41,804 nucleotides of DNA from positions 1 through 41,804 of the forward strand of contig CAJOMV010000013.1 of the NCBI GenBank assembly GCA_905235805.1, read 5' to 3'. The position numbers and the translations under genes were made by a program. Positions 1,651-15,655 of this stretch are shown here, piece by piece. The first letter of the stretch is position 1. Each line of letters starts with the position of its first letter. Below the pieces are notes generated by a model. The model did not search any database. It saw only the letters and a list, made by a program, of their open reading frames with translations, and was not told where the DNA came from. Source of the DNA: an uncultured Ruminiclostridium sp. (GTDB taxonomy: Bacteria; Bacillota; Clostridia; Oscillospirales; Ruminococcaceae).

Positions 1651-1695
1651 ATGAAAAACACAATACATACCGCGGGAGGAGTCGTCCGCTGTTGA
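1651..1695 (+). CDS. Candidate leader peptide (14 aa) ending in Cys, upstream of the sulfate operon
   Basis: The strong Shine-Dalgarno AAAGGAG is placed 7 nt before an ATG that opens a 14-codon frame, MKNTIHTAGGVVRC, then TGA. The only Cys codon is the last one, right before the stop. GCGG (1672-1675) and CCGC (1686-1689) can pair across the end of the frame, so a ribosome stalled on the Cys codon would change local folding. It lies between the operon promoter and cysP, 60 nt before the cysP start. Cysteine-sensing leader peptides ahead of sulfur genes are known in actinobacteria; this is not visibly homologous to them, and the attenuation role is inference. The first 14 nt also match the start of cysP, so a small duplication is an alternative origin. 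Confidence 0.6.
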   Translation: MKNTIHTAGGVVRC

Positions 1696-2887: not shown

Positions 2888-3718
2888 ATGAAAAACAGTA
2901 AACGTATAATTCCCGGCTTCGGGATATCAATGGGCGTGACTCTCGCACTGCTGAGCATTATGGTGCTGATACCGCTGGCTTCGCTGGTGGTATTCACCGC
3001 GAAAATGGACTTCGCCGATATAATCAAGGTCATCACACGTCCCCGTGTCGTGGCAAGCTTCGAGGTGACGCTGCTCACCGCGTTCATCGCCTCCGTGATA
3101 AACGCCGTTATGGGCGTTATACTCGCGTGGGTACTGGTACGGTACAGCTTCCCCGGAAAGCGCATACTCGACGGCATGATCGAGCTGCCCTTCGCCCTCC
3201 CCACCGCGGTAGCGGGCATATCCCTCACCTCGCTCTATGCCGACAGCGGCTGGATAGGCGGGATATTCGCGAGCATGGGCATAAAGATAGCCTACACCCG
3301 CATAGGTATCACCATAGCCCTGATATTCATAGGCATACCCTTCGTGGTGCGCACGGTGCAGCCGGTACTGGAGAAGCTTGACCCGCTGTATGAGGAGGCT
3401 GCCGGCATTCTCGGCGCAAGCCGCACCCGCACCTTCTGGACGGTGATAATCCCGGAGCTGCGTCCGGCGATATTCACAGGCTTCGGGCTCGCGTTCGGGC
3501 GCTGCCTCGGCGAATACGGGAGCGTCGTGTTCATCGCGGGCAACCAGCCCTACGAGACGGAGATAACCCCGCTCATCATAATGTCGGAGCTGCAGGAATA
3601 CGACTATTCGAGCGCCACGGCTATCGCGCTTGTGATGCTTGCGGCAGCGTTTCTGATACTGTTCCTCGTGAACCTGATACAGATAAGAAGCTCGAAGATA
3701 CTGAAGGGAGGTCACTGA
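2888..3718 (+). CDS. cysT: Sulfate ABC transporter permease CysT (CysU)
   Basis: This 276-aa inner-membrane permease forms the CysTW channel dimer. Several hydrophobic segments are clear, starting with GFGISMGVTLALLSIMVLIP. The cytoplasmic EAA loop that docks on CysA reads EEAAGILGASRTRTFWTVI, followed by the family segment GRCLGEYGSVVFIAG. I chose the ATG at 2888 because AAAAAGGA lies just upstream; the frame is open further back, but that part overlaps the end of cysP and lacks a ribosome site. It is followed after one base by cysW. Confidence 0.93.
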   Translation: MKNSKRIIPGFGISMGVTLALLSIMVLIPLASLVVFTAKMDFADIIKVITRPRVVASFEVTLLTAFIASVINAVMGVILAWVLVRYSFPGKRILDGMIELPFALPTAVAGISLTSLYADSGWIGGIFASMGIKIAYTRIGITIALIFIGIPFVVRTVQPVLEKLDPLYEEAAGILGASRTRTFWTVIIPELRPAIFTGFGLAFGRCLGEYGSVVFIAGNQPYETEITPLIIMSELQEYDYSSATAIALVMLAAAFLILFLVNLIQIRSSKILKGGH

Positions 3719-3719
3719 T

Positions 3720-4616
3720 ATGGCAGCGGTAAACACAGTTGCGACAAAGCCCGCAAAACAGGTAGTTTCCCGCGAGGGAAGCACCGAGATACACGCGCAG
3801 ACCCCCGGCTCGAAAGCCGTCAAGACAGTGCTGATAACGGTAAGCGTCATATTCCTGTTCATAATGCTCGTGATGCCGCTGATAACGGTCATCTACGAGG
3901 CATTCCGCAAGGGACTTATCCCCTATCTCGAGGCGATATCCGACCCCGACACCATAAGCGCGCTGCTGCTGACGCTGGAGGCGACAGTCATCGCGGTGGT
4001 GATAAACACGGTATTCGGACTGTTCGCGGCATGGGCGATATCGAAGTTCCGGTTCCACGGAAAAAAGCTGCTGGTGACGCTCATTGACCTGCCGGTGACT
4101 GTCTCCCCGATAATCGCGGGTCTTATCTTCGTTCTCACCTTCGGCAGGCAGAGCGCGCTGTACCCGCTGCTGGAGGAGCTTGACTTCATGGTGGTGTACG
4201 CTGTCCCCGGCATTATACTCGCGACAGTGTTCGTCACATTCCCGTTTATCTCCCGCGAGATATTGCCCGTGCTTGAGGCACAGGGCACCGACGAGGAGGA
4301 GGCTGCCGCGCTCATGGGCGCGAAGGGCTTCACTATCTTCCGCAAGGTAACGCTCCCGCACATAAAGTGGGCGCTGCTGTACGGCATAGTGCTCTGCGCG
4401 GCGCGCGCAATGGGCGAGTTCGGCGCGGTCTCGGTGCTTTCGGGGCATCTGCGCGGCAAGACCGTGACGCTGCCGCTGCAGGTGGAGATACTCTTCGGCG
4501 ACAACAAGTTCATGCCCGCCTTCGCGGTATCGTCGATACTTGTCGTTCTCGCGGTAGTGATACTTATTGTGCGGAGCATCGTTGAGTACATAGGAAAACA
4601 TAAGGGTGAAAAATAA
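3720..4616 (+). CDS. cysW: Sulfate ABC transporter permease CysW
   Basis: The second permease subunit (298 aa) has a hydrophilic N-terminal tail of about 35 residues, then membrane segments. The EAA loop EEEAAALMGAKGFTIFRKV is followed by ARAMGEFGAVSVLSGH and the CysW-typical GKTVTLPLQVEILF. GGGAGGT precedes the ATG. The stop TAA overlaps the ATG of cysA by one base, indicating translational coupling within the transporter cassette. Confidence 0.93.
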   Translation: MAAVNTVATKPAKQVVSREGSTEIHAQTPGSKAVKTVLITVSVIFLFIMLVMPLITVIYEAFRKGLIPYLEAISDPDTISALLLTLEATVIAVVINTVFGLFAAWAISKFRFHGKKLLVTLIDLPVTVSPIIAGLIFVLTFGRQSALYPLLEELDFMVVYAVPGIILATVFVTFPFISREILPVLEAQGTDEEEAAALMGAKGFTIFRKVTLPHIKWALLYGIVLCAARAMGEFGAVSVLSGHLRGKTVTLPLQVEILFGDNKFMPAFAVSSILVVLAVVILIVRSIVEYIGKHKGEK

Positions 4617-5674
4617 TGTACATAGAGCTGAAAAACATAAACAAGTCCTACGGCGATTTCAAAGCCTCGGACAATGTGAATTTTGAGATAGAAAAGGGGA
4701 AGCTTGTGGCGCTGCTCGGACCGTCGGGCAGCGGCAAGACCACCATTCTCCGCATGATAGCGGGGCTCGAGAAGCCCGACAGCGGCGAGATAATCATAGA
4801 CGGCAAGGTCGTAAACGACATTCCCGCCAGCGAACGAAACATCGGCTTCGTGTTCCAGAGCTACGCGCTTTTCCGCTATATGACGGTGTATGACAACATT
4901 GCCTTCGGACTTAAAGTCCGCAAGCTGAACAAGCAGGCGATCAGCGAGCGCGTGACGGAGCTTGTGAAGCTGATAGGGCTGGAGGGCTTCGAGAAGAGAT
5001 ACCCGTCGCAGCTCTCGGGCGGGCAGAGACAGCGTGTGGCGTTCGCGAGAGCCCTTGCCCCGAACCCGCAGGTGCTGCTGCTCGACGAGCCCTTCGCCGC
5101 CATAGACGCGAAGGTGCGGCAGGAGCTCCGCAAGTGGCTCAAGGATATGATACACCAGCTCGGCGTGACGGGGATTTTCGTCACCCACGATCAGGACGAA
5201 GCTATCGAAGTCTCCGACGAGATAATCGTCACAAACAAGGGGCGTGTCGAGCAGACAGGCGCACCCATAGACATCTACCGCAACCCCGCCACCGCATTCA
5301 CCTCCGCGTTCTTCGGGGTGACCTCCGAGCTGAAGGATTACAAGGCTTTCAGGTCCTTCGACGAGGTGGAGGAGTACGACAGGGCGATAGTGCGTCCTGA
5401 GTTCGTGAAGATAACCAAAAAGAGCGAGGTTCAGAAATACAAGAGCTCCGCGGTGGAGGGAACGGTCGAGACCGTTGAGTTCCGCGGAAACAGCATCGAG
5501 ATAACCGTAAGCTGCAACGGCAGCATATTCAGCGCCCGCCGCAGTCTCGACGATGCCCCCGTTGAGGTGGGCGAGACCGTGGACGTATTCATCTACCGCA
5601 TCTTCATCACCCACGGCGACTCCGTGAAGCTGCTGAAAAACAACGCTATCCGCGAAGAGACTGTGGTCATATAA
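4616..5674 (+). CDS. cysA: Sulfate ABC transporter ATP-binding protein
   Basis: This 352-aa ATPase powers sulfate import. All nucleotide-binding motifs are intact: Walker A GPSGSGKT (35-42), Q-loop Gln81, signature LSGGQRQR (133-140), Walker B VLLLDEP (153-159) and the H-loop His191 in VTHD. After about residue 235 comes a C-terminal regulatory domain of the kind found in CysA, containing VRPEFVKI and VETVEFRGNSIEI. Its start overlaps the cysW stop. hemA follows five bases after the stop, so transporter and tetrapyrrole genes are physically one unit. Confidence 0.95.
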   Translation: MYIELKNINKSYGDFKASDNVNFEIEKGKLVALLGPSGSGKTTILRMIAGLEKPDSGEIIIDGKVVNDIPASERNIGFVFQSYALFRYMTVYDNIAFGLKVRKLNKQAISERVTELVKLIGLEGFEKRYPSQLSGGQRQRVAFARALAPNPQVLLLDEPFAAIDAKVRQELRKWLKDMIHQLGVTGIFVTHDQDEAIEVSDEIIVTNKGRVEQTGAPIDIYRNPATAFTSAFFGVTSELKDYKAFRSFDEVEEYDRAIVRPEFVKITKKSEVQKYKSSAVEGTVETVEFRGNSIEITVSCNGSIFSARRSLDDAPVEVGETVDVFIYRIFITHGDSVKLLKNNAIREETVVI

Positions 5675-14754: not shown

Positions 14755-15655
14755 ATGCACGAATTATCGCACCTTGACGAGCTGGAAGCCGAGGCGGTGT
14801 ACATAATCCGCGAGGTCGCCGCGGAATGCGAAAAGCCCGTGATGCTGTACTCTATCGGAAAGGACAGCTCGGTGATGCTGCACTTGGCGCTGAAAGCGTT
14901 CTATCCCGAGAAGCCCCCCCTTCCCCTTCCTGCACGTCAACACGACGTGGAAATTCAGAGAGATGATAAAATTCCGCGACGAGACCGCAAAGAAGCTGGG
15001 TATCGAGATGCTGGAGTACATCAACGAGGACGGCGTGAAGCAGGGTATCAATCCCTTCGACCACGGCGCCGCGTACACCGACATTATGAAGACGCAGGCG
15101 CTCAAGCAGGCGCTCGACAAATACGGCTTCACAGCGGCATTCGGCGGCGGCAGACGCGACGAGGAGAAGTCCCGCGCGAAGGAGCGCATTTTCTCCTTCC
15201 GCAGTGCCTCACACGCATGGGACCCGAAGAACCAGCGTCCCGAGATGTGGAAGCTCTACAACACGAAGATCAACAAGGGCGAGAGTATCCGCGTGTTCCC
15301 CATATCGAACTGGACTGAAAAGGATATATGGCAGTACATAAAGCGCGAGAATATCGACATCGTGCCGCTGTATTTCGCGGCGGAGCGCCCCGTGGTGGAG
15401 CGTGACGGCAACATCATCATGGTGGACGACGACCGCTTCCCTCTCAAGGAAGGCGAGGTGCCGCAGATGAAGTCGGTTCGGTTCCGCACGCTCGGCTGCT
15501 ACCCGCTGACGGGCGGCATCGAGAGCACAGCGGCTACGCTTGACGAGATAATCGCGGAGACGCTTGCGAGCGTGGAATCCGAGCGCACCTCCCGCGTTAT
15601 CGACAACGAGGCGGCGGGAAGCATGGAGCGCAGAAAGAGAGAGGGGTATTTCTGA
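14755..15655 (+). pseudogene. cysD: Sulfate adenylyltransferase subunit 2 (CysD), interrupted by a +1 frameshift in a C7 run
   Basis: CysD is the PP-loop subunit of ATP sulfurylase, making APS from sulfate and ATP. Frame 1 from the ATG at 14755 (GGAG upstream) reads normally through [20 protein letters not shown] and FYPEKPP. At 14914-14920 there are seven C; removing one restores [15 protein letters not shown] and joins the second frame, which then reads correctly ([38 protein letters not shown]) to the stop at 15655. Corrected length is 299 aa, the family norm, and all other motifs are intact. Explanations are an assembly or sequencing error, a recent mutation, or a phase-variable tract. 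A programmed +1 slip on CCC-C is possible but unsupported. Loss would block APS formation by this operon. Confidence 0.88.

Follow-up and report, generated by a model that had tools for sequence, protein, structure and literature searches.

A leader reading frame upstream of the sulfate operon

Does the supply of cysteine set the expression of a sulfate-uptake operon through the translation of a short reading frame whose last codon specifies cysteine? The locus that raises this question lies on contig C13 of a 2.43-Mb draft genome (80.7% complete) of an uncultured Ruminiclostridium sp., in a stretch of 41,804 nucleotides that we refer to as the window. An earlier note had described a Shine-Dalgarno sequence, an ATG, 14 codons with Cys as the last before TGA, a promoter-like site upstream and cysP downstream, and the sequence contains all of these elements. 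The leader ORF (MKNTIHTAGGVVRC, 1651-1695; leader and operon features are all on the forward strand) opens with the ATG at 1651 and runs for 14 codons to the Cys codon TGT at 1690-1692 and the TGA stop at 1693-1695, with the cysP start at 1756, and its Shine-Dalgarno core, GGAG within AAAGGAG, occupies 1641-1644. A sigma-70-type promoter-like site, TTGACA-17-TATTAT, is found at 1560-1588 with 11 of 12 consensus matches. The consensus scan returned two such sites in 1350-2900 versus a mean of 1.4 in shuffles and is therefore weak evidence by itself; as judged by eye, promoter-like sequences resembling that of the window precede many related leaders.

The dyad ACATATCATATTGATATGT at 1606-1624 forms an 8-bp hairpin in the fold of the untranslated region (UTR), and is a candidate repressor operator or 5' RNA hairpin. 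Dyads of this kind, reading ACATATCA...TGATATGT in the window and CCTACTAAAC...ATAGG in others, are placed just past the -10 box at many cysP loci, and a dyad is found upstream of cysP at loci L109, L110 and L113. The dyad near the promoter and its counterparts at other loci suggest an added DNA-level control besides the leader, with the dyad possibly serving as a repressor operator.

The gene proposed to be regulated encodes the sulfate ABC transporter substrate-binding protein CysP (1756-2820; NCBIfam NF008022, E 3.5e-131, above cut-off). It is followed by genes for the CysT (2888-3718; TIGR02139) and CysW (3720-4616; TIGR02140) permeases and the sulfate transporter ATPase CysA (4616-5674; TIGR00968), all above cut-off, and then by hemA, which also scored above its NCBIfam cut-off. 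Farther downstream, the family searches, which resumed at the sulfite-reductase-like gene, identified an adenylyl-sulfate reductase alpha subunit and CysN (TIGR02034) above cut-off, and a sulfite-reductase-like protein (best match TIGR02912), an aprB-like ferredoxin and a CysD-like frame (14755-15318, 187 aa) below cut-off. The CysD-like gene looks interrupted in the draft genome, since it is short and only its first 79 residues match CysD families. Based on gene order, the sulfate-uptake and assimilation genes probably form one transcript. An Rfam search of the window at gathering thresholds returned only two tRNAs; one, at 149-222, is a tRNA-Cys gene with anticodon GCA, located about 1.4 kb upstream of the cysteine leader, and the other spans 1-72. 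The closest named relatives of CysP come mainly from metagenome-assembled genomes labelled Ruminiclostridium, Ruminococcus, Oscillospiraceae or Clostridia, many of them from ruminants.

Conservation of the leader motif and its codons

The conservation of the peptide and of its Cys codon in relatives had been named as the test that could refute a regulatory role for the leader. We assembled cysP loci from a DNA search of 60 relatives, from cysP protein searches by taxon and from named genomes (59 loci). The taxon searches, each counting the window's genome, recovered cysP in 12 of 394 genomes of the order, 20 of 396 of the family, 28 of 391 of the class and 22 of 398 of the phylum. Among the 27 closest loci, defined by a CysP at least 84% identical, 23 have a complete 5' UTR and four lack part of it. 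All 23 carry a GG..RC leader at the same place upstream of cysP, with the consensus [A/S]GG[V/I/L/M]xRC in a short ORF; in L004 and L094, which have an incomplete UTR and begin with identical DNA, the leader end TIGTAGGVVRC is still visible. Because three pairs of loci share an identical leader, the 23 loci provide 20 distinct leaders. Both Gly residues, the Arg and the Cys of the motif, which in the window reads A-G-G-V-V-R-C (1672-1692), are invariant in all 20, each Gly being encoded by three codons, the Arg by two and the Cys by TGT only. The motif and its Cys are hence kept while neighbouring codons vary synonymously, and the proposed leader withstands the test.

The terminal position of the Cys, a part of the earlier description, holds in the window and in 16 of the 20 distinct closest leaders, where the stop codon directly follows RC (20 of 27 in the wider motif set), but the remaining four continue beyond the Cys. 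The conserved feature is thus the motif, rather than the terminal position of its Cys. A second, adjacent Cys is present in two of the 20. Across 112 cysP loci, which include some duplicates between collections, a GG..RC motif in a short ORF preceded by a Shine-Dalgarno sequence and located at most 250 nt upstream of cysP was found at 27, versus none in 6,720 shuffled upstream regions; for any such ORF ending in Cys, the values were 33 of 112 loci versus 2.1% of shuffles. The wider set of 27 distinct GG..RC leaders was chosen by motif, so that the lack of replacements at its Gly, Arg and Cys positions proves nothing alone. A search of NCBIfam models with six relatives' leaders of 20-36 aa matched no family up to E 10, queries this short scoring weakly; the 14-aa peptide of the window was too short to be included.

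The codons of the motif are used differently from those of the genes they precede. The Cys codon is TGT in 24 and TGC in three of the 27 GG..RC leaders, whereas in the cysP, cysT, cysW and cysA genes of the same loci TGC makes up 79% and TGT 21% of 96 Cys codons. Similarly, GGA represents 28% of 2,170 Gly codons in the operon genes versus 18 of 27 and 17 of 27 at the two leader Gly positions. TGT is read by anticodon GCA through wobble. For cysteine T-boxes, a preference for TGC has been reported (PMC2940859). This comparison points to the TGT at 1690-1692 as the proposed regulatory codon, as supporting evidence only, since hairpin pairing, leader base composition and shared descent can favour TGT as well.

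A predicted hairpin over the cysP Shine-Dalgarno sequence

The earlier note had placed a GCGG/CCGC pairing across the end of the frame. That placement proved incorrect: GCGG (1672-1675) and CCGC (1686-1689) both lie inside the frame, and the stem falls short of its end because pairing stops just before the Cys codon. We rejected this stem as the switch, given its position before the Cys codon and its presence, by eye, in few relatives (L092 and L146 among them), in contrast to a second, Cys-anchored hairpin that exceeds the expectation from shuffles. The 5' arm of this hairpin (1690-1708) starts from the leader Cys codon and stop, and its 3' arm (1737-1756) covers the cysP Shine-Dalgarno sequence GAGG (1744-1747) and the first base of the cysP ATG. 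None of 200 shuffles was as stable (z -3.49), and for the longer UTR segment 1600-1790 two of 200 were (z -2.69). In the minimum-energy fold of the window, three of the four Shine-Dalgarno bases have their partners at +9 to +11, counted from where the Cys codon begins, and one is bulged.

We scored as Cys-anchored any pairing of at least 0.45 between the cysP Shine-Dalgarno sequence and the segment +4 to +16 relative to the Cys codon, and detected it in 19 of 41 distinct leader UTRs. When the spacers were shuffled, in 50 rounds, the number averaged 1.64 of 41 and never exceeded 5. These 19 include leaders of a different type, ending in RANFRFGRC (L052, L054), as well as some that extend beyond the Cys (L046, L048, L055). 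In their free folds, the partners of the paired Shine-Dalgarno bases sit at +7 to +12 with differing 5' arm sequences, and one or two of the four Shine-Dalgarno bases are unpaired in L033, L146, L092, L102 and L103. Two-sided changes were seen in 5'-3' pairs at 3' offsets -1 (A-U 12, U-A 3, G-U 2, G-C 1), 5 (U-A 7, A-U 3, G-C 2) and 8 (G-C 9; C-G, A-U, U-A and G-U one each), as obtained from per-sequence duplex pairing of fixed zones in sequences that are hairpin-selected and related, hence not independent.

Cys-anchored pairing is absent in the other 22 of the 41 UTRs. This group takes in eight of the closest 23 loci (L034 with its duplicate L106, L099, L100, L101, L104, L105 and L107), in which a GG..RC leader is nevertheless present; these may form weaker or other structures, or the mechanism as stated below may be incomplete. 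RNAalifold, run on 18 hairpin-bearing UTRs aligned with MAFFT, detected no common structure; a shifting of bulges from one sequence to the next may be the reason. When all partners are considered, the excess is modest, with a total Shine-Dalgarno pairing over the 41 UTRs of 27.7 versus 23.7 in shuffles (maximum 25.9). Mean pairing also differs little between 45 cysP loci with a called leader (0.67, including three calls judged spurious) and 45 others (0.57, including a few leaders that the pattern missed). Between the leader and cysP (1695 to 1756) there is no terminator-like site. As the window holds no Rfam family besides the tRNAs and this interval no such site, a translational form of control fits better than attenuation at an intrinsic terminator.

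Modelled ribosome position on the leader

We then modelled a waiting ribosome on the same 19 hairpin-selected UTRs as a simple block reaching from -15 to +12 relative to the first base of the A-site codon, a scan that describes geometry and is not independent proof. Native pairing above 0.3 persisted in 17 of 19 UTRs when the A site was set two codons upstream of the Cys codon. One codon upstream it persisted in 7 of 19, and at the Cys itself in 1 of 19, the modelled ribosome thus removing it there in 18 of 19. It is therefore at about the Arg-Cys step that a waiting ribosome would begin to free the Shine-Dalgarno sequence. Mean total Shine-Dalgarno pairing falls only from 0.88 in the free state to 0.52 with the A site at the Cys, since alternative pairings form instead: when masked at the Cys, pairing stays at 0.99 in L055 and rises slightly in L146 and L092, and in the window it goes from 0.75 to 0.58.

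Distribution of leader types

Upstream DNA is available for 19 of the 20 cysP genomes of the family. Eight of these loci carry GG..RC leaders, one a GGIMCCC leader, five leaders ending in RANFR[FC]GRC and two other Cys-containing short ORFs, with no leader recognised in the remaining three (L056, L060, L061); L050 falls outside the automated pattern and is counted from a separate scan. The second leader type, found in L050-L054, ends in RANFRFGRC (RANFRCGRC in L050), and in L052 a nearly perfect hairpin, about 20 bp long, extends from the Cys codon to the cysP start. Among the 12 order loci, L033 and L034 have GG..RC leaders, the leader of L035 ends in GGISYC, and those of L036-L039 and L041 end in RMRC, RMCC or RMCRC forms (RMRC or RMCCC forms in L036-L039); none was recognised in L040, L042, L043 and L044. 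In L036 and L039, the cysP Shine-Dalgarno sequence pairs with leader bases some 20 nt upstream of the Cys codon rather than with bases after it.

Beyond the window's own locus, scanning and partial reading by eye of the 27 class loci, one of which (L089) has no upstream DNA, identified Cys leaders in L064 and L088 only. The 21 further phylum loci presented no clear Cys leader, L212 (MRCRLLKRSYC) and L203 being ambiguous, and none was recognised at the Treponema, Lachnospiraceae and Paenibacillus cysP loci. The Oscillospiraceae locus L112 has a short ORF, MYRIMRMY, led by a Shine-Dalgarno sequence and devoid of Cys. Two distant cysP loci, L147 (Pleurocapsa) and L148 (Anaerolineae), are preceded by Cys-rich short ORFs ending in CCRFLCCA and CCRCCA, which are possibly a separate type of cysteine leader. 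As a probe for a wider regulon, a loose leader pattern without a stop codon was discarded as uninformative after matching 225 of 297 genomes. With the stop codon included, 9 of the 20 matches listed for the 29 cysP genomes were cysP sites, and by eye none of the other 11 listed looked like the leader of a sulfur gene. Leaders with CGA codons, those extending beyond the Cys and those of the other motif groups escape this pattern, so that a wider regulon may exist.

Proposed mechanism and alternatives

The leader, its conservation, the hairpin and the place of the hairpin relative to the Cys codon come from sequence and computation. From these we infer a transcription start, a ribosomal pause with its trigger and an effect on expression, which would combine as follows. 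The mRNA would start just past the promoter-like site at 1560-1588, and a ribosome would translate the leader with its 14 codons. With ample Cys-tRNA, the TGT would be read, the ribosome would stop and leave, and the hairpin 1690-1708/1737-1756 would form, hiding the cysP Shine-Dalgarno sequence and the first base of the start codon and keeping cysP expression low. When Cys-tRNA is scarce, the ribosome would wait with the TGT in its A site and its leading edge over the 5' arm to about +12; the bases so covered would include the partners of the Shine-Dalgarno sequence, and cysP and the subsequent genes would be translated. The pause may be lengthened by the conserved Gly-Gly-x-x-Arg that precedes the Cys, acting as part of the nascent chain or through an internal GGAGG where the leader has one. 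A switch that opens at low cysteine makes sense here, because the downstream genes serve sulfate uptake and assimilation. The conserved motif and Cys support the cysteine-responsive translational switch that had been envisaged for this locus, as does the predicted hairpin running from the Cys codon to the cysP Shine-Dalgarno sequence, and we consider it likely that the sulfate operon is gated by a translational attenuator sensing charged tRNA-Cys.

More tentatively, AGG[V/I]xRC may itself be a nascent-chain pausing motif that acts with the Cys codon, yielding a hybrid of arrest peptide and codon-starvation sensor. Gly-Gly-x-x-Arg, often together with a Shine-Dalgarno-like GGAGGA, would then slow the ribosome exactly where Cys-tRNA enters, turning a single, ordinary, wobble-read Cys codon into a sharp sensor of tRNA-Cys charging.

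Part of this evidence can be read in other ways. In a Rho-dependent form of transcription attenuation, leader translation or the stalled ribosome would control the access of Rho to the G-poor, A/C-rich linker at 1709-1736, which is unpaired in the folds and has one G and seven C in 28 bases. Inspection by eye often shows A/C-rich linkers in relatives too, Rho has been proposed to act at the cys leaders of Actinobacteria (PMC1262725), and such control could account for the relatives without Shine-Dalgarno pairing. It leaves the Cys-anchored hairpin of 19 of 41 UTRs unexplained, however, and the variable distance from leader stop to cysP (11 to 121 nt across loci; 60 in the window, 11 in L048 and 24 in L055) counts against it, making Rho a rather improbable agent. 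The invariance of Gly-Gly and Arg, when codon starvation requires only the Cys codon, could instead reflect an arrest peptide in which the nascent AGGxxRC halts the ribosome on a small molecule of sulfur metabolism, and not on uncharged tRNA-Cys. We find this improbable as well, and slightly more so, for if the operon is opened by stalling, a ligand that reports ample cysteine would drive it the wrong way, and Cys as the sensor is favoured by its retention in leaders of otherwise different sequence (RANFRFGRC, RM[RC]C, GGISYC). TnaC-like stalling at the stop codon is not favoured either, since four of the 20 close leaders run past the Cys and its direction would be wrong.

Control could also reside in a DNA-binding repressor at the dyad 1606-1624, with the leader merely aiding translation by coupling or reinitiation. 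By eye, many relatives have a resembling dyad close to the promoter, the Treponema loci and others that lack a recognised leader among them; the genome encodes two Rrf2-family proteins, which may or may not be connected with the dyad; and the closeness of the leader stop to cysP in L048 and L055 suits coupling. The gap in the window and the longest gaps elsewhere are far for simple coupling, however, and reinitiation requires neither a conserved Cys nor a hairpin starting at the Cys codon. We therefore deem it very unlikely that the repressor is the sole control, although repressor and leader may act together. Under the preferred reading, a translational attenuator sensing tRNA-Cys charging, the conserved leader with its Cys-anchored hairpin suggests that sulfate uptake is gated translationally in Oscillospiraceae of the rumen and gut. 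The leader motif offers a simple handle for finding switches of this sort, and the invariance of the residues preceding its Cys poses the question of whether a peptide motif can sharpen the sensing of amino-acid starvation.

Comparison with known systems

In ermC-type translational attenuators, an antibiotic-stalled ribosome on a leader ORF frees a hidden downstream Shine-Dalgarno sequence. The window shares with these a leader ORF with its own Shine-Dalgarno sequence (1641-1695) and, by prediction in the window and in 18 other UTRs, a hidden Shine-Dalgarno sequence opened by the ribosome on the leader. It differs from them in its trigger, presumably uncharged tRNA-Cys, and in the prediction of a single hairpin rather than an alternative set.

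Leaderless polycysteine short ORFs that precede mycobacterial cysteine genes and respond to cysteine were reportedly described by Canestrari in 2020. This system is termed translation attenuation in a passage citing it (PMC9094748, PMC13236596). The leader described here is likewise a short ORF with a Cys codon before cysteine genes and would, as proposed, be cysteine-responsive. Unlike the mycobacterial ORFs, leaderless and polycysteine by title, it has a Shine-Dalgarno sequence, a predicted 5' UTR that places its ATG 62 nt past the predicted -10 box, and one Cys codon instead of a run; its conserved motif is another one, and its host belongs to the Clostridia. The candidate leaders of cys operons in Actinobacteria (PMC1262725) resemble it in having Cys near the stop, cys operons downstream and no obvious terminator. 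They contain runs of Cys codons, and their authors, who considered Rho, saw no conserved hairpin capable of termination; the predicted Cys-anchored hairpin over the Shine-Dalgarno sequence sets the present leader apart from them.

The uORFC-8-2 element of Rhodobacterales cysS has conserved Cys codons at about positions 14-15 and is predicted to mediate ribosome-dependent attenuation through uncharged tRNA-Cys (PMC8632094). Structure around the Cys codons of an upstream ORF is common to both systems. The uORFC-8-2 element has two tandem Cys codons, mostly UGC, and a U run taken as an intrinsic terminator, upstream of cysS; the window instead has one UGU, sulfate uptake genes and no terminator-like site in 1695-1756. 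For Clostridia and other Firmicutes, PMC2940859 discusses cysteine control by T-boxes or protein regulators. We recognised no description of a cysteine leader peptide in Clostridia in an open-access search covering parts of the literature, which is no proof of absence. In Clostridium perfringens, cysK, cysP1 and cysP2 are controlled by a cysteine T-box through premature transcription termination, with TGC as specifier codon (PMC2940859). The present leader differs in its TGT codon and in that the window has no Rfam T-box match at gathering thresholds, and, as proposed here, it would share with the cysteine T-box the sensing of tRNA-Cys on behalf of cysteine genes in Clostridia.
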